This document shows, one piece after another, positions 2,518 to 58,460 of a stretch of DNA of 64,000 bases; position 1 is the stretch's first letter, and each line of letters opens with the position of its first letter. A model generated the notes under the pieces. It saw only the letters and a program-made list of their open reading frames with translations. It did not search any database and was not told the DNA's origin. This DNA is from Halalkalibacter oceani. Lineage in GTDB: Bacteria; Bacillota; Bacilli; Bacillales; Bacillaceae_D. The stretch spans positions 62,001-126,000 of the forward strand of contig NZ_JAMBOL010000004.1 of the NCBI RefSeq assembly GCF_023715605.1, given 5' to 3'. The position numbers and the translations under genes were made by a program.

Positions 2518-2688
2518 GGCCTTCCCCTTTTCATTTGTGACGGACGAACTATTTCGCCTCTCTACGGATCATCATTTTTTACTTTACTCCTCTTTTCCCC
2601 CTCTTTCAACTGTTTATTACACGGATTTAAAACCAAAAAGAACCGATTCCCTCTCACCAACCACTCATTTTTGATTGAAATAGGCCAG

Positions 2689-2724
2689 AAAAAAAGCCCG
2701 GATTCGTATTGGAACAAACCCGGG
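2689..2724 (-). terminator. Intrinsic terminator after the acyltransferase gene
   Basis: On the minus strand CCCGG...CCGGG with further pairs forms a stem of about 10 bp and an 8-nt loop, followed directly by seven T. It lies downstream of the acyltransferase stop at 2810. The rest of 2518-2809 holds no recognisable gene. Confidence 0.75.
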
Positions 2725-2809
2725 ATATGAAAAAAGGAAGCAATACTCGTTTAATTTTATCCTAACCACTGTCTATTTATACTTTCAGCTTGTTTCACAT
2801 CGTCTAACA

Positions 2810-3886
2810 TCACAAAATTTTCTCTAGAAATGCAATCTTCTTAATTAAATAACTAAATAAGAAACTTAATATAATACTTAAAATGGTCACAATAAAAAAT
2901 TTTGTTAAAGCTCCAGACGAGATTTCTTCCATAACCCCTTGCAAAGCATAAACTATAAAAATATGAATGATATAAACTGTAAAAACATTTCCCGCCATAA
3001 AAGCAAGTAGTTTCCGACGATTGTTCCAATATTCTCTACCAATTACAAGTATCCCTATTATTAAGCCTACACCAATAAATCCTTCAATGATTGTCCAAAT
3101 AAATAGAGACTGTATACCCGTTAATACATTTACAAATTGCATTAATGCTGCTAAAATCCCTATTACCATCCAGATTACACCTGTACTGATTGAAATATTT
3201 CCCAACCAATTATAACGATATGCAAGAATCCCAAAGGCAAAAAAACTGATATACTGAGGCAAGCGTCCAACTTCCACTGGCATAAAAGGAAAGATACTAA
3301 CCCATTCCCCAACAGGAAACCAAATTCGAATAATAAAATTAGAAAATATTAATAGAATGGAAAACAAAAATAATTCTTTATGGCCTAATGTTTTTTCGAC
3401 TGAAAGTTCATGTTTACTTGGTGTTCTAATTATTACTCGTTTTAACACATAACACACGGAAAAAAAGAATAATAATGAAATAAACCAAAGATGACCGACT
3501 TCAAAATCAAGTTTCCCAATATAATCATAGATCATATATTTCCAAAATGATCCGCTAATCCCATCAACAAAATAAGTAATTGGTCCAAATATTACAATAA
3601 CTACAAAAGTAAACGGAATAACTAAGCGAATGAATCTACTTTTTAAAAAGGAATAAACTCCTCTTTTATCTATGGATGCAGGAATAAAATAAGCAGATAT
3701 TAGAAAGAACAACCCCATAAAAAACGCCCCGTTAACATCAAAGAAAGGCCCTAAAATCATTGATTTCTCAGTGCTTGCAAGTGGCCAATCATCTATAGGT
3801 CCATATGATTGACCTGCGTGATGAGCTACGACTAACAATATTAATGCTACTTTAATATTATCCAGATACACTAATCTTGATTTCAT
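2810..3886 (-). CDS. Acyltransferase 3 family integral membrane protein
   Basis: A 358-residue protein with about ten membrane helices. The N-terminus has the family pattern YLDNIKV followed by VVAHH (the conserved histidine of acyltransferase 3 proteins, about residue 22), and then FFLISAYF near residue 62. Members move acyl groups onto extracytoplasmic carbohydrates or lipids. This one lacks a C-terminal SGNH domain, so it is not a full OatA-type enzyme and its acceptor is unknown. The gene and the two-component system behind it (3969-5943) are much richer in A+T than the flanks, and all point the same way, suggesting joint acquisition. It begins 83 bp after the kinase stop, so it could be the target or last gene of that operon. 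Confidence 0.85.
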   Translation of the reverse strand: MKSRLVYLDNIKVALILLVVAHHAGQSYGPIDDWPLASTEKSMILGPFFDVNGAFFMGLFFLISAYFIPASIDKRGVYSFLKSRFIRLVIPFTFVVIVIFGPITYFVDGISGSFWKYMIYDYIGKLDFEVGHLWFISLLFFFSVCYVLKRVIIRTPSKHELSVEKTLGHKELFLFSILLIFSNFIIRIWFPVGEWVSIFPFMPVEVGRLPQYISFFAFGILAYRYNWLGNISISTGVIWMVIGILAALMQFVNVLTGIQSLFIWTIIEGFIGVGLIIGILVIGREYWNNRRKLLAFMAGNVFTVYIIHIFIVYALQGVMEEISSGALTKFFIVTILSIILSFLFSYLIKKIAFLEKIL

Positions 3887-3968
3887 TTTATTTTACACCC
3901 CAATTGCTATTTATTAATCCAGGTTGAACAAGCAGCATATACTTTAACTGTTTGAAGCAGATATCAGA

Positions 3969-5297
3969 TTACTGAGTCACCATTCTTTTTATAGGCAATT
4001 TAATGATGACTTTCGTTCCTTTTCCTAACCCCTCACTATAAACACTTATCGTTCCAGCATGCTTTTGTACAATATACTGAGCAATGGATAAACCTAATCC
4101 TGTACTCCCGGCAACTCTGCTGCGAGATTTATCTGCCTTGTAAAACCGTTCAAAAATATTCGGAAAGTCTTCTTTTGAAATTCCAATCCCATCATCTTTA
4201 ATCGTTATAACAGCATTGTTTTCTTCTACTTCACTAGTAAATGCTATTTTTCCAGGAGGGGGTGAATATTTAATGCTATTATCTAAAATAATTCTGATAA
4301 CTTGTTTAATAAGAGAAAGATCCCCTTCTACAAGGATTTCCTGTTTCTTTTCAAACATAAATGTATGTCCTGTATTCATTACCACGGAATCTCTTATCAC
4401 TTCTTCAAGTAATTCAGGCAAATTAATCGTTCTTACCTCTAGTATTTGTTGTTCTGACTTAGCAAGAAGCAGAAGTCTCTCAACCAATTTATTCATATAT
4501 GCTGCTTCTTTCTTTATAGAATCTATCGCTTCTTGCCGGACAGTAAAATCTTCTCCACCCCACCTCTCTAATAAATCAGAATAACCCTGAATAACTAATA
4601 AAGGCGTTCGAAGTTCATGGGAGGCATCTGAAACAAAACGATCTTGTCGACGATAGGTGTCCCATACTTTATCCATTAATTCATTAAAAGTTTCCGCTAA
4701 ATCACGTAATTCATCATGAGATGTTTTCACGTCTAATCTGAGATTCAACTTTCCCACTCTAATCGTCTTAACCATCTCTTGAATAGGTCGCAACATATTT
4801 TTAATGGTCCAACCACTAATAATTAAGACAAATATCCCAATAATAATGAATACAAATATTAGAACAAGTATGATTGCCCTAACACTCTCCCACTCTTGTT
4901 CAAGTGATTTTGAAACAGTAATAACAACGTTCTTTCCATTCAGATCAGCGTTAAATTGATTGATGATCTTCATCCCATTAATCTCATTTGTTATTCCGGT
5001 TGTCTCTACTGGATCCATTTCCTTTAGCAATACTGTGATATTCGTATTTGCTGAATAGGATTGAATCTGATCTATTTCTCCTTTAGAAACGATACTTCGA
5101 ATGACTCTTTCATGGTCTTCTAAGATCAATGAAGCCCCCGCAAGCATTATTCTGGAAATGGAAAAAACTAACACAAATCCAATTACAGCAAACAAAATAG
5201 TGAAAAGTCCCAAATTTGTTAACATTGATTTCAGTCCGATAGAAAACTTAAAGCGCTTATTGACCTCTTCCCAGAGATTAATTATCTTTAATGACAT
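3969..5297 (-). CDS. Membrane sensor histidine kinase of the OmpR-partner class
   Basis: About 442 residues: a first membrane helix near residues 28-52, an extracytoplasmic sensor of about 85 residues, a second helix near 142-168, a HAMP linker, a HisKA dimerisation domain with the phospho-accepting His in SHELRTP (about residue 228), and a HATPase domain with N-box DNSIKYSP, G1 DDGIGIS, F-box FERFYKAD and G2 GSTGLGLS. It autophosphorylates and passes phosphate to the regulator encoded just upstream, whose stop it overlaps by 20 bp. I chose the ATG at 5297 because GAGG lies 8 bases before it; a TTG two codons earlier would put that site too close. The sensed signal cannot be read from the sequence. 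The gene is AT-rich like its neighbours. Confidence 0.92.
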   Translation of the reverse strand: MSLKIINLWEEVNKRFKFSIGLKSMLTNLGLFTILFAVIGFVLVFSISRIMLAGASLILEDHERVIRSIVSKGEIDQIQSYSANTNITVLLKEMDPVETTGITNEINGMKIINQFNADLNGKNVVITVSKSLEQEWESVRAIILVLIFVFIIIGIFVLIISGWTIKNMLRPIQEMVKTIRVGKLNLRLDVKTSHDELRDLAETFNELMDKVWDTYRRQDRFVSDASHELRTPLLVIQGYSDLLERWGGEDFTVRQEAIDSIKKEAAYMNKLVERLLLLAKSEQQILEVRTINLPELLEEVIRDSVVMNTGHTFMFEKKQEILVEGDLSLIKQVIRIILDNSIKYSPPPGKIAFTSEVEENNAVITIKDDGIGISKEDFPNIFERFYKADKSRSRVAGSTGLGLSIAQYIVQKHAGTISVYSEGLGKGTKVIIKLPIKRMVTQ

Positions 5298-5943
5298 AGC
5301 CAATTCCTCTAATCGTCTGGATCATCCTCACGTGCATAATAGCTTCCAGCTTTCGTCTTATATTTTTTATGAACACATCTACAATATTGGTATCGCCATA
5401 ATACTCATATCCCCAGACATTCTCTATTATATTCTCACGTGATAAGGCAATATTTCGATTTACTAATAAATAATAAAGCAAGTCATATTCTTTTTTTGTA
5501 AAACCAATTTCTTGATCACTGACCATTACCTGATACGTATCAGGGTTAATGGTCAGTTCACCCCACTGAAGGCTATTATTTATCACTTTTCCTCTTAATA
5601 CGACTCTTATACGAGCAAGTAATTCTTCGATAAAAAAGGGTTTTGTAATATAATCATTTGCTCCACTATCCAATCCTGTAACCTTATCTGACACCTCTCC
5701 CTTTGCAGTCAGCAATATAACAGGAGTTTCTTTCGCCTTCCGAAGTCTACGAAGAACTTCTATCCCACTAATTTTCGGGAGCATCACATCTAAAAGAATT
5801 ACATCAAACCTTTCCCCCAAAGCCCTATTCAATCCGTTTTCTCCATCATTTTCTATAATTAATTCAAATCCTTCATGCTTTAACTCTAGCTCCAAATATC
5901 GAGCTATAGCCGCATCATCCTCAATAAGTAAAATTCGCTCCAC
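5278..5943 (-). CDS. OmpR/PhoB-family response regulator
   Basis: A 221-residue regulator with a receiver domain (acidic pair EDD near residue 8, phospho-acceptor Asp in LLDVMLP about residue 51, Thr in LLTAKG, Lys in ITKPF) and a C-terminal winged-helix DNA-binding domain ending in RGIGYVIKDN. I chose the GTG at 5943 because AAGGAGGG sits five bases upstream; an upstream TTG would place that ribosome site inside the coding region. It is the first gene of the AT-rich operon with the kinase and acyltransferase. A direct repeat about 140 bp upstream (6078-6094) could be its own binding site. Confidence 0.92.
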   Translation of the reverse strand: MERILLIEDDAAIARYLELELKHEGFELIIENDGENGLNRALGERFDVILLDVMLPKISGIEVLRRLRKAKETPVILLTAKGEVSDKVTGLDSGANDYITKPFFIEELLARIRVVLRGKVINNSLQWGELTINPDTYQVMVSDQEIGFTKKEYDLLYYLLVNRNIALSRENIIENVWGYEYYGDTNIVDVFIKNIRRKLEAIMHVRMIQTIRGIGYVIKDN

Positions 5944-6297
5944 TCTAACCCTCCTTCTCAAATTTAGTCATTCAGTATATTATCCAGAAGGTCACTCGCA
6001 TGAATGCCTGATTCAACTGGCTTGATGCATATCATTAGTCTATTATGTAAAAATGAAGCAATGAGGTTACATTTTCTGAAGATCTAATGAAGATTTGCAC
6101 TTTCACTTTTATTTGTAAAATATCCCCTTTTTTCTAAGCTCCGAAATTATTATTTCCGACCTTATTAAATATCGATATAAATTCAAATCTGCTGGCTTTG
6201 CCAAAGGATGGTACTACAGATATACCACTCGACCTATATGTTAATCGGTCAAATAAAAATCTTCAGCTTTGCTCGTGTTTTCCATTTGCAAAAAGAA
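5944..6297. other. AT-rich intergenic stretch upstream of the two-component operon
   Basis: No coding frame with a ribosome site and protein-like composition is visible. The AT-rich composition of the acyltransferase/two-component block continues to about 6.2 kb. The promoter of the operon must lie here, but I cannot place a convincing -35/-10 pair. Confidence 0.5.
6078..6094. promoter_or_regulatory. Direct repeat GAAGAT-N5-GAAGAT, possible response regulator site
   Basis: Two GAAGAT hexamers occur with an 11-bp period, the spacing expected for two OmpR-family monomers on one DNA face. It lies upstream of the regulator gene, so autoregulation is possible. Only position and spacing support this. 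Confidence 0.3.
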
Positions 6298-6340
6298 GAG
6301 CTTGAGACAAAGGTAAAAGACAACCTTTTGTCTCAAGCTC
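6298..6340 (-). terminator. Terminator hairpin with GAGCTTGAGACAAA arms (repeat B end type)
   Basis: GAGCTTGAGACAAA pairs with TTTGTCTCAAGCTC across a short loop. On the minus strand TTCTTTTTG follows, so it can end transcription of nikR. Its arms match the left end of repeat B found at 26.8, 56.3 and 58.1 kb. Confidence 0.65.
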
Positions 6341-6451
6341 GAAGCCACTGCCCTATTCTTCATCGCAGCCTCCTAATCATATATTTCTAACTGAATCCGT
6401 TCACGAAAAAACACTCTGCTGCTTATGATGGAGACTGTCATTCAAAGATGC

Positions 6452-10717: not shown

Positions 10718-10760
10718 AAAAAGGACTGGACAAAAGGTTTTTTCCCTTTTGCCCAGTCCC
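10718..10760 (-). terminator. Terminator hairpin, GACTGG-CAAAAGG family
   Basis: GGACTGG-A-CAAAAGG pairs with CCTTTTG-C-CCAGTCC. On the minus strand TTTTTCG follows, and it lies just past the stop at 10782. It belongs to the window-wide GGCTGGGACAAAAGG hairpin family. Confidence 0.75.
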
Positions 10761-20289: not shown

Positions 20290-20305
20290 TTTCTCAAAAG
20301 AGCTT

Positions 20306-20348
20306 AGAGGCTGGACAAAGGGAATTGACAACCTTTTGTCCAGCCTCT
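20306..20348. terminator. Terminator hairpin, GAGGCTGGACAAA family
   Basis: AGAGGCTGGACAAA pairs with TTTGTCCAGCCTCTT. It lies between the convergent 20020 and 20392 genes and belongs to the window-wide hairpin family. Confidence 0.75.
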
Positions 20349-26744: not shown

Positions 26745-26790
26745 GAGGCTGGGGCAAAAGGCTGTTTTTTTACCTTTTTCCCAGCCGCTC
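26745..26790. terminator. Terminator hairpin, GGCTGGGGCAAAAGG family
   Basis: GAGGCTGGGGCAAAAGG pairs with CCTTTTTCCCAGCC around a T-rich loop. It forms one end of repeat B and lies downstream of the DDAH-like gene. Confidence 0.7.
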
Positions 26791-26910
26791 TAAGCAATGA
26801 GCGGAACCGCCACGATCTTTTAAAGCCCGTTGTGAGTGGGTTTCTCACAACGGGCTTGTGGCGTGTGAAGCCATTGCCAGTAGGTCCAAAGCTAGTTTTG
26901 TCTCAAGCTC
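26745..26910 (-). repeat. Repeat B, uninterrupted copy (166 bp)
   Basis: Read on the minus strand, it begins GAGCTTGAGACAAAACTAGC, continues with a block containing TTCACACGCCACAAGCC, a perfect 14-bp stem (26823-26836 with 26844-26857, loop of 7) and a TTCCGCTCATTGCTTAGAG block. It ends in a GGCTGGG...CCCAGCC terminator-like hairpin (26745-26790). The two ends are imperfect inverted repeats (GAGCTTGAGACAAAA and GAGGCTGGGGCAAAA). The same sequence occurs at 58108-58460, where repeat A is inserted, and in truncated form at 56348. No clear target duplication was found. Confidence 0.8.
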
Positions 26911-28861: not shown

Positions 28862-28893
28862 AAAAAAACCTGAGGAGCATAATCCGCCTCAGG
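28862..28893 (-). terminator. Intrinsic terminator of the 71-residue protein gene
   Basis: On the minus strand CCTGAGG...CCTCAGG is followed by seven T. Repeat A is inserted immediately upstream of it, separating the terminator from the gene's stop codon. Confidence 0.85.
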
Positions 28894-28899
28894 GAAAGG

Positions 28900-29072
28900 A
28901 GGCCACTGAAAAACCTCTTTTTCCGTAACTCGAAGAAGAGTAATGGCTCCACACGTTGCGCGCCTTGCTGCGAGAAGATCAATCGTAGCAAGGCTTTCAA
29001 AATCAGGCAACGGCTACGCTCATTACGAAAAAGCTGTTGAAAAAGTGAAAATCGTACTTTTTCAGCAGCTTC
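28900..29072 (+). mobile_element. Repeat A: 173-bp MITE-like element, complete copy 1
   Basis: The element starts AGGCCACTGAAAAACC and ends CTTTTTCAGCAGCTTC. It is flanked on both sides by AGGGAAAGG (28891-28899 and 29073-29081), a perfect 9-bp target duplication. The ends are imperfect inverted repeats of about 14 bp that share CTGAAAAA. The last 45 bp fold into a hairpin. It encodes no protein. A second copy of identical length is at 58193. Lacking a transposase, it would be mobilised in trans by an IS with 9-bp duplications; the family cannot be assigned here. Confidence 0.9.
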
Positions 29073-29089
29073 AGGGAAAGGAAGCTGTT

Positions 29090-34744: not shown

Positions 34745-36193
34745 TTACTCAGCCTTTAACACCGTACGCAATGTTTCAATGTTTTCTTCCATAAGCGAAA
34801 AATAATCCGCGCCGGCTTCTACATTTTCCGTTGTTAATGCTTCAAGCGGGTGAAGATAAAGTGACTCCGCTTCTAAATAATCCTGAACGGTTTGCGCCAC
34901 CGCCGGAGAAATATTCGGCTCAAACAAAACATATTCAAGCCCCAGCTCCTCTGCCTGCTCAATCGTTTCAATCAGCTGCTGCTGTGTAGGCTCATTTGTC
35001 GGAGAAAGCCCGGCAATCCCGATTTGCTTGATGCCATAACGCGCTTCCCAATAGCCGTATCCGGCATGAGAAACGATAAACGTATCAATTTGCGCATTTG
35101 CAGCAACTTCTTGAAATTGTTGGTCGAGCTCTTCAAATTGCCCGCGAAGCTCTTCAAAGTTCGCTTCAAAGTACTCTTCCTGCTCAGGCATTAGCTCAAC
35201 GAGTAAATGTTTAATTTGCTCAGCCATCTCGATGGAAAGAACCGGATCAAGCCAGACATGCGGATCATGATCGCCATGAACATGTCCGTGATCATCATGC
35301 TCATGACCGTGGTCGTGCTCTTCCCCATGCTCATGATCGTGATCATCATGATGATCATGAATGGCAATTGCAATAGGCTCACTTTGCGCCACGACCTCAT
35401 GATCGTCACCGAAAAGCTTTACTTGAATCAACTGCCCATCTTCCGCTACTCCTTCGTACGTGTTCGTTCCATTGTCAGGTACCACTTCCCACGCATCGTC
35501 ACTCTCTGGATCTTCACCTGGCGCCAGTGTATACCAATGCCAATGATCGTGACCACTTTCCTCAATTTCATGGGCGGTTAAATGAACATGATCGCCTGTA
35601 TGATAATGGTCTTTTACCCCTTCAATGCGCATAGTGCCACTCTCGACTTCCCCATCGTCGTGATTATGCTCATGCGCGTGCTCCTCTTCTGCACCATGGT
35701 CATGGTCGTGCTCCTCTTCTACACCGTGCTCATGGTCATGGTCGTCCTCATGTTCATGCGCATGTCCGTCCTCTTCCCCGTGTCCGTGATCATGATCATG
35801 ATGATGGTTATCTTCGATTAACTCAACACCTGCACTCGCTTCGAGAACCGCTACTCCTTCATTTGCGACAGCCTCGACAATCCGGTCGGCAAAAGCCTCA
35901 ATCCCTGCGCCATTGTAAATAAAGGCATCTGCTTCGGCGACGGCAACCATTTCATTAGGGGTAGGCTCGTATGTATGGGCGTCGGCGCCGACCGGTACGA
36001 TATTTGTCACCTCAACGAAATCCCCGCCAATTTTCTTCGTCCAATCCTCCAACGGAAAAATCGAGGTCATGATCGTCAGCTGTTCCTCTGTTTCTTGACT
36101 TTCTTCCACTTCATCCGCAGTATCTGTCTCTGTGTTTGAGCACGCATTTAATAAAAGCAATGCCGTTGCTGCTACCATGAAAAACTTTTTCAA
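34745..36193 (-). CDS. ZnuA-type zinc-binding lipoprotein with enlarged His-rich insertion
   Basis: A 482-residue solute-binding lipoprotein (lipobox LNAC at residue 18). Metal ligands of the cluster A-I fold are visible: His in GADAHTYEP (about 77), HVWLDP (about 312), SHAGYGYW (about 376) and an acidic ligand near VLFEPNISP (about 435). Ordinary ZnuA proteins are about 310 residues. The extra length is two His/Asp/Glu-rich stretches (about 131-180 and 277-308) around an extra beta domain of about 90 residues that is itself rich in His near its start (DHYHTGDHVHLTAHE). It would scavenge zinc outside the membrane. The TTG start has GAGGGG eight bases upstream. No znuB or znuC is nearby. Confidence 0.9.
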   Translation of the reverse strand: MKKFFMVAATALLLLNACSNTETDTADEVEESQETEEQLTIMTSIFPLEDWTKKIGGDFVEVTNIVPVGADAHTYEPTPNEMVAVAEADAFIYNGAGIEAFADRIVEAVANEGVAVLEASAGVELIEDNHHHDHDHGHGEEDGHAHEHEDDHDHEHGVEEEHDHDHGAEEEHAHEHNHDDGEVESGTMRIEGVKDHYHTGDHVHLTAHEIEESGHDHWHWYTLAPGEDPESDDAWEVVPDNGTNTYEGVAEDGQLIQVKLFGDDHEVVAQSEPIAIAIHDHHDDHDHEHGEEHDHGHEHDDHGHVHGDHDPHVWLDPVLSIEMAEQIKHLLVELMPEQEEYFEANFEELRGQFEELDQQFQEVAANAQIDTFIVSHAGYGYWEARYGIKQIGIAGLSPTNEPTQQQLIETIEQAEELGLEYVLFEPNISPAVAQTVQDYLEAESLYLHPLEALTTENVEAGADYFSLMEENIETLRTVLKAE

Positions 36194-38343: not shown

Positions 38344-38422
38344 GTTGCGCGCCTTGCTTACGCCTACGCTCATGGCAAAAAAGCTGCTGAAAAAGTGAAA
38401 ATCGTCCTTTTTCAGCAGCTTC
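38344..38422 (+). repeat. Truncated copy of repeat A with intact right end
   Basis: GAGTTGCGCGCCTTGCT matches the middle of repeat A. About 40 bp are then missing before CTACGCTCAT...AAAAGCTGCTGAAAAAGTG and the full terminal hairpin. The left end is absent. The hairpin lies just past the stop of the oxidoreductase gene (38447) and can serve as its terminator. Confidence 0.75.
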
Positions 38423-47573: not shown

Positions 47574-47616
47574 GAGGCTGCTGAAAAAGTGAACATCGTC
47601 CTTTTTCAGCAGCTTC
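47574..47616. terminator. Solo terminal hairpin of repeat A, acting as terminator
   Basis: GCTGCTGAAAAAG pairs perfectly with CTTTTTCAGCAGC. It lies between the convergent kinase and ypcP genes. The sequence equals the right end of repeat A, without the rest of the element. Confidence 0.8.
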
Positions 47617-47626
47617 TTCCATCTCG

Positions 47627-55703: not shown

Positions 55704-55747
55704 GGGGCTGAGGCAAAAGGTTGTTTTTTTAATCTTTTGCCCAGCCC
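55704..55747. terminator. Terminator hairpin, GGGCTGAGGCAAAAG family
   Basis: GGGCTGAGGCAAAAG pairs with CTTTTGCCCAGCCC around a T-rich loop. It lies between the DUF1906-like gene and the convergent 55771 gene. Confidence 0.75.
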
Positions 55748-55770
55748 TTCTGACCATTTGGCCGTTTCGG

Positions 55771-58107: not shown

Positions 58108-58460
58108 GAGCTTGAGACAAAACTAGCTTTGGACCTACTGGCGGCAATGACTTCACACGCCACAAGCCCGTTGTGAGAACCCACTCACAACGAGGCCACT
58201 GAAAAACCTCTTTTTCCGTAACTCGAAGAAGAGTAATGGCTCCGCGCGTTGCGCGCCTTACTACGAAAAACCCACTCGTAGCAAGGCTTTCAAAATCAGG
58301 CAACGGCTACGCTCATTACGAAAAAGCTGCTGAAAAAGTACGATTTTCACTTTTTCAGCAGCTTCCTCACAACGGGCTTTAAAGGATCGTGGCGATTCCG
58401 CTCATTGCTTAGAGAGACTGGGAAAAAGGTAAAAAAAACAACCTTTTGTCCCAGCCTTGT
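58108..58460 (+). repeat. Repeat B, copy interrupted by repeat A
   Basis: The left part (58108-58192) and right part (58366-58460) match, in order, the uninterrupted copy at 26745-26910 read on the opposite strand. Between them lies repeat A plus one extra copy of CTCACAACG. The distal end is the GACTGGGAAAAAGG...CCTTTTGTCCCAGCC hairpin (58415-58457), which can serve as a terminator for the permease gene or, reversed, for ywbE. Confidence 0.88.
58193..58365 (+). mobile_element. Repeat A: 173-bp MITE-like element, complete copy 2, nested in repeat B
   Basis: It has the same length and ends as the 28900 copy and is flanked by CTCACAACG on both sides (58184-58192 and 58366-58374), a perfect 9-bp duplication. 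The empty site is preserved in the 26.8-kb repeat B, which has CTCACAACG once. Relative to copy 1 the loop of the terminal hairpin is inverted. An internal hairpin (CTACGA...TCGTAG) carries AAAACCCAC in its loop. Confidence 0.93.

Follow-up and report, generated by a model that had tools for sequence, protein, structure and literature searches.

The window, the whole 64,000-nucleotide stretch of DNA analysed here, carries at 58108-58458 a short repeat, B, which is interrupted by the MITE A. On inspection, A was found to be flanked on both sides by CTCACAAC(G), and the order of the parts, all on the plus strand, is GAGCTTGAGACAAAACTAGC...GAACCCACTCACAAC / GAGGCC...GCAGCTTC / CTCACAACGGGCTTT...CCAGCCTT. 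The left part of B (58108-58191) ends with the first copy of CTCACAAC (58184-58191). A itself is 174 bp long (58192-58365), and its terminal repeats, GAGGCCACTGAAAAA and, from the opposite side, GAAGCTGCTGAAAAAG, are imperfect. The second copy of CTCACAAC (58366-58373) opens the right part of B (58366-58458), which contains the end hairpin. These boundaries were drawn from sequence and alignment, and for A also from a family search. An uninterrupted B was identified from the sequence on the minus strand at 26745-26910; here CCCACTCACAACGGGC is continuous, and an A-like core fragment directly adjoins this B, reaching to about 26956.

The window contains three more features of A type, all on the plus strand and placed with the help of synteny with a congener (G008). 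A further copy of A lies at 28899-29072 between two copies of AGGGAAAG (28891-28898 and 29073-29080). A right-end hairpin of A type with a remnant of A occupies 38381-38421, and a mini hairpin made of fused A-type ends occupies 47574-47617, with a diverged B-like element at the counterpart in G008. Elsewhere, an A in G008 (L192, C53) has as its counterpart in the own genome (L070, G000:C33) a mini hairpin with fused ends; internal deletion of A seems to give rise to such mini forms. At 20300-20347, 10723-10759 and 55706-55769, a B-type end hairpin stands alone between genes, the remainder of B being absent, and the G008 orthologues of these three carry B- or A-like elements that are different or more complete, as if one terminator were being exchanged for another. 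The syntenic comparison also revealed that the region 2630-6451 measures about 3.8 kb here and about 0.8 kb in G008, and that a His-rich coding repeat at 35655-35779 exceeds its G008 counterpart by about 110 bases. Within the window, no Rfam family reached the threshold.

The sequence-only reading of this locus had proposed that A inserted into B with a 9-bp target duplication. We carried out the pairwise alignment with the 26.8-kb copy, and the flanks of A join into B when 182 bp are removed, leaving 157 of 170 columns identical. When deletion lengths of 170-191 were compared, the top alignment was obtained with exactly 182 bp; the score rose from -90 for the undeleted sequence to 271, and all start positions from 58184 to 58193 are equivalent. 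This demonstrates, at the level of sequence, that A inserted into a pre-existing B and duplicated 8 (or 9) bp. The insertion and its short duplication are thereby borne out, and it is the length that needs revision. CTCACAACG does occur twice around A (58184-58192 and 58366-58374). Since the end repeat of A starts with G on both sides, the preferred reading of the duplication is the 8-bp CTCACAAC; by symmetry the final G of the left CTCACAACG is part of A, and the G after the duplication is also present in B. At 27 sites outside composites, the same parsing gave 8 bp at 21 sites and 9 bp at the other 6.

The two loci had also been described as a before-and-after pair. The 26.8-kb copy is indeed a B without A, but it is a paralogue and not the same site before insertion. 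The G008 orthologue of the 58.1-kb locus has neither the window's A nor its B; it holds a short A-type-ended element that lies in a diverged core hairpin, points the other way and is flanked by TTGACAAC. True orthologous pairs were found at two other loci. The 28.9-kb A, with AGGGAAAG on both sides here, corresponds to an empty site in G008 with AGGGAAAA present once. By flank comparison, a B elsewhere in the own genome (L039, G000:C29:75856-76019) is orthologous to the composite L182/L099 in G008:C67, the flanks being 93-94% identical over 3.1 kb. This B is intact in the own genome, and its G008 counterpart consists of B plus A, inserted at the same base as in the window. Between the duplicated copies at L182, CTCACAAC and ATCACAAC, there is a difference of 1 base. 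The G008 orthologues of the composites L011 and L003 gave no clean empty site. The claim that B is older than A holds for the 58.1-kb copy; it does not extend to the families, as both are multicopy and A is present in 11 of the 13 genomes of the genus (own included), and it is further limited because A seems to have entered B repeatedly at one base.

The own genome (G000) is a 4.47-Mb draft in 124 contigs. At least 78 stretches in it match A (the best 40 of 154 candidates were scored), many of them the end hairpin read backwards within the same copies, and at least 43 match B (the best 40 of 260 candidates were scored). With so many copies, the arrangement at 58.1 kb is no coincidence. The family A comprises elements of 174 bp in at least 40 places, with imperfect terminal inverted repeats and no transposase gene. 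A duplication is present at 34 of the 46 A copies with both ends, in unrelated flanks; in 12 of the 46 none was seen. For B, a target duplication of at least 6 bp was present in 0 of the 25 two-ended copies, and one copy has 4 bp. The flanks of B are A-rich on the left and T-rich on the right. When an inverted repeat was sought at the B target, neither a site-specific dyad (960 of 5000 re-pairings scored as high) nor a clean empty site was found. The literature search, for which subscription papers lay mostly outside reach, returned no description of either family. L215, L223 and L266 are MITE-sized elements (160-266 bp) from other genomes, one example being Salisediminibacterium halotolerans; they have A-type ends and duplications of 8-9 bp. 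The loop of A's right-end hairpin is flipped between L001-L003 and L015 (GTACGATTTTCAC versus GTGAAAATCGTAC), as if inverted within the palindrome. Contig C55 of the own genome carries a CRISPR-like array (L063, about 1880-2373) with repeats like ATTTCAATCCACGCACTCACAAAGAGTGCGAT and unique spacers.

Candidate mobilizing enzymes were identified for both families. Among the 36 transposase loci examined in the genus, L136 in genome G005 is the sole B-ended one. Its ends are GGGGCTGGGACAAAA and GAGGCTGGGACAAAACTAGCTTT, the second of which shares GACAAAACTAGCTTT with the left end of B; GAGGCTGGGACAAAA is present at one end and differs by 1 base at the other, and ACTAGCTTT is shared as well. The protein of L136 (524 aa) scores 416 bits on NF033551, the IS1182 family profile, against a cut-off of 270. 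B therefore has its ends in common with an autonomous IS. For A, a scan of all genomes for its ends placed an IS1182-type transposase inside the end at 2 of the 80 loci listed. The A-type-ended locus L292, from a Muribaculaceae metagenome bin, encodes an IS1182-type transposase of 273.5 bits. Used as a query, this protein matched in 108 of the 299 genomes of the order, and the matches led to elements of 1.69-1.93 kb with A-type ends. Nine of the 11 IS loci re-examined have paired ends, and all 9 have exact 8-9 bp duplications. The left 15 bases of A, GAGGCCACTGAAAAA, are found at both ends of five IS and as variants in four more, and the four transposases of A-type-ended IS that were checked all exceed the NF033551 cut-off (280-370 bits). 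A shares with these autonomous elements its ends and a duplication length of 8-9 bp.

A partner IS for A was not found in the own genome, where NF033551 gave 4 matches, all under the cut-off, and an end-pattern search yielded 20 loci, none with such a partner; a draft may hide repeats. In the genus, the PF01609 and PF00872 searches, from whose longer match list the 36 loci were examined, gave no A-ended transposase, and an end-pattern search that excluded most MITE interiors gave no A enzyme. The enzyme of A is consequently inferred from more distant genomes. IS256 was set aside as a mover of A because its profile matched 4 of the 13 genomes of the genus, as against 11 of 13 for A. Because the ends, together with subterminal bases or duplications, are common to intact IS1182 elements, A and B are both assigned to MITEs of the IS1182 type with different ends; they are genome-wide and non-coding. 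B would have been spread by an IS1182 element with GAGGCTGGGACAAAA ends, leaving no duplication.

Despite their different ends, the two families have a homologous core in common. A profile of the B core matched the interiors of 12 out of 12 A copies from five genomes, mostly over the whole core length, with E values from 1e-11 (G004) to 0.17; the G000 copies were the weakest. As a control, 1 of 600 block-shuffled sequences was listed (E 4.9). Two hybrids were found: L210 in the own genome has an A-type core within B ends, and L197 in G008 has most of an A within B ends. The hybrids and the shared core thus show the core in combination with either type of end.

The position of A within B is recurrent, at several unrelated loci. 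Among 64 A copies from G000 and G008, 10 lie at the base and in the orientation seen in the window, within a B or a core relative. Seven are two-sided (L001, L002, L003, L011, L181, L182 and L184); the host of L181 is a core relative, and L184 has a deletion to its right. Three are one-sided (L025, L027 and L211). Counted outside these 10 are L200, which lies in the opposite arm of a diverged core hairpin with the duplication GTTGTGAG, L030, which resembles a mirror-image event accompanied by a deletion, and further copies with flanks like B at other positions, among them L006, L009, L183 and L188.

A target matrix was built from 27 duplicated A sites, with six composites and the orthologue L205 removed; L183, L188 and L208, which lie in B-type end hairpins, were retained. 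The left flanks follow the consensus AAAAA-n-CCC and the right flanks GGGG-n-TTTT, with T in 23 of 27 at right +9 (p=4e-10), A in 20 of 27 at left -6 and G in 18 of 27 at right +4. The maximum of the matrix in B falls on the hotspot octamer, read on the other strand, with a score of 9.3 that 0.04% of window positions attain; read on the observed strand, the octamer scores 6.5 and ranks fifth of 508. In 26 of 30 solo B copies, the top-scoring site coincides with the hotspot to within one base; 2 of the 30 are without CTCACAAC. An A-type transposase would thus prefer AAAAA-n-CCC-(8-9 bp)-GGGG-n-TTTT. The B core contains AAACCC-A-CTCACAAC-GGG-C-TTT, and since this matches the inferred preference, an intact B would be a ready landing site.

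The reading we favor, with a probability of about 0.78, is that A and B are non-autonomous MITE families that use different IS1182-family transposases and carry a homologous core between different ends, and that A has landed in B repeatedly. A very different account would make A and B modules of one mosaic repeat that is shuffled by recombination and is no transposon at all. The homologous core, the hybrids L210 and L197 and the fragments of both families side by side at 26.9 kb would all fit, but we consider this highly improbable in view of the duplications at A copies in unrelated flanks and of the end repeats common to intact IS elements. The empty orthologous sites also contradict it for A, although for B no clean empty site was found. 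Closer to the favored reading is a single entry of A into B, after which the composite spread as a unit or by gene conversion among B copies. Most composites do share base and orientation, L181 and L027 are by flank comparison one orthologous composite, and the A sequences of L001-L003 are identical at 173-174 of 175 positions. Yet the seven composites are ungrouped in a tree of A, and a single clade of composite A is rejected by the AU test (p=0.0039; 58 of 64 rows, the short L197, L198, L200, L201, L210 and L211 being dropped). Similarity among the B hosts of L001-L003 is 84.8-89.9%, which does not exceed that of solo pairs (mean 89.8, sd 3.6), and at L039/L182 only one of two orthologous B copies contains A. 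In L001-L003, identity in the B arms is 80-83 of 85-88 positions on the left and only 71-77 of 89-94 on the right, the low right-arm identity partly reflecting a truncated B right end in L002. The near identity of the left arms of L002 and L003 (83/85) counts against our preferred explanation. So do the failure to find an A-ended transposase in the own genome or at the genus loci examined, the fifth rank of the hotspot on the observed strand, the well-matching but unoccupied site in the A core, the positions of L200 and L030, and the 12 of 46 A copies in which no duplication was seen. We regard a single entry as distinctly unlikely, and gene conversion with very short tracts may be an alternative source of composites. 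As the trees reject one composite clade, A probably entered B repeatedly, and independent entries are the simplest reading of the composites.

Repeated landing on one spot probably occurs because the spot fits the target preferred by A's enzyme. The rival view is that the shape of the B core hairpin is the target and not its bases, as reported for IS1272 in the accessible part of that work (PMC5678879), where inverted repeats are targeted. The hotspot does lie within the 3' arm of a strong hairpin, L200 and L030 are also in core hairpins, and several A-type-ended IS are located in dyads. Against this, the local fold at the 27 sites was compared with that of nearby controls and proved no stronger (Wilcoxon p=0.86), 4 of the 27 falling in the top tenth; nor does complementarity between matched flanks exceed that between re-paired flanks (5.81 versus 5.87). 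Neither a general hairpin preference nor site-specific palindromes are supported by these tests, and we find targeting by shape unlikely. An extension of the favored reading, possible but tentative, would make A and B sister MITEs that have one core in common and whose IS1182 ends can be exchanged, as in the hybrids. The core would contain the site favored by the A-type transposase, B would serve as a landing pad for its relative, and A would spare its own core. For the site in the A core, the matrix gives 11.9 in the 58-kb copy, where it is exceeded by a site near the right end (13.0), and 5.8-6.2 in the 28.9-kb copy. Despite the matching score, A was found inside the A core in 0 of 64 copies; 3 of the 64 have other A-like flanks. 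Such sparing of an equally well-matching site hints at target immunity acting in trans to a non-autonomous element.

B may have a further role. In most of 30 copies its right end folds into a hairpin, and paired changes occur there (for example CTGTGAC/GTCACAG); its right flank is T-rich. With crude ORF calls, the neighbors of 30 B copies are convergent in 13 cases and divergent in 3; for 22 solo A copies the numbers are 5 and 6, with no such bias. A terminator consensus scan lists none inside 58108-58458. It is plausible that B sits at, and acts as, transcription terminators.

From sequence alone, the orthologous pairs and a repeatedly hit hotspot provide a target rule for an IS1182-type transposase that can be tested. 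Two end types on a shared core, with hybrids between them, illustrate how a small mobile repeat can switch its mobilizing enzyme. As far as its accessible text goes, the IS1272 paper (PMC5678879) explains targeting by structure, whereas a base consensus gives the better fit for the sites studied here.

Precedents exist both for nested mobile repeats and for IS hotspots within repeats, and the comparisons that follow refer to the accessible portions of the papers cited. The present families resemble the IS1182 family and IS1272 (PMC5678879) in the transposase family of their partners, in end type and in intergenic placement. B is also like IS1272 in leaving no duplication; the IS1272 model additionally permits a path in which the loop alone is duplicated (PMC5678879). 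Unlike IS1272, A and B code for nothing, and A makes 8-9 bp duplications at sites that fit a base consensus better than a hairpin rule (PMC5678879). SMR-A, which is found in PATEs of Haloquadratum walsbyi (PMC3119063), is like A a transposase-free repeat that prefers another mobile repeat. The SMRs differ in being unrelated families with unrelated ends, and they are said to make no duplication and to be without a known enzyme (PMC3119063). REP sequences (PMC1525189) are, like B, repeated extragenic palindromes that serve as an insertion hotspot, but there the guest is a full IS, whereas A and B are both MITEs and have a core in common. The pneumococcal BOX, RUP and SPRITE repeats (PMC3049150) are likewise short and structured, some nested in one another; no recurrent single-base hotspot is reported in the accessible part of that account. 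Set beside these systems, the insertion of one MITE into another described here, at a target that recurs and can largely be predicted, is known in kind and unusually well documented at the level of sequence.
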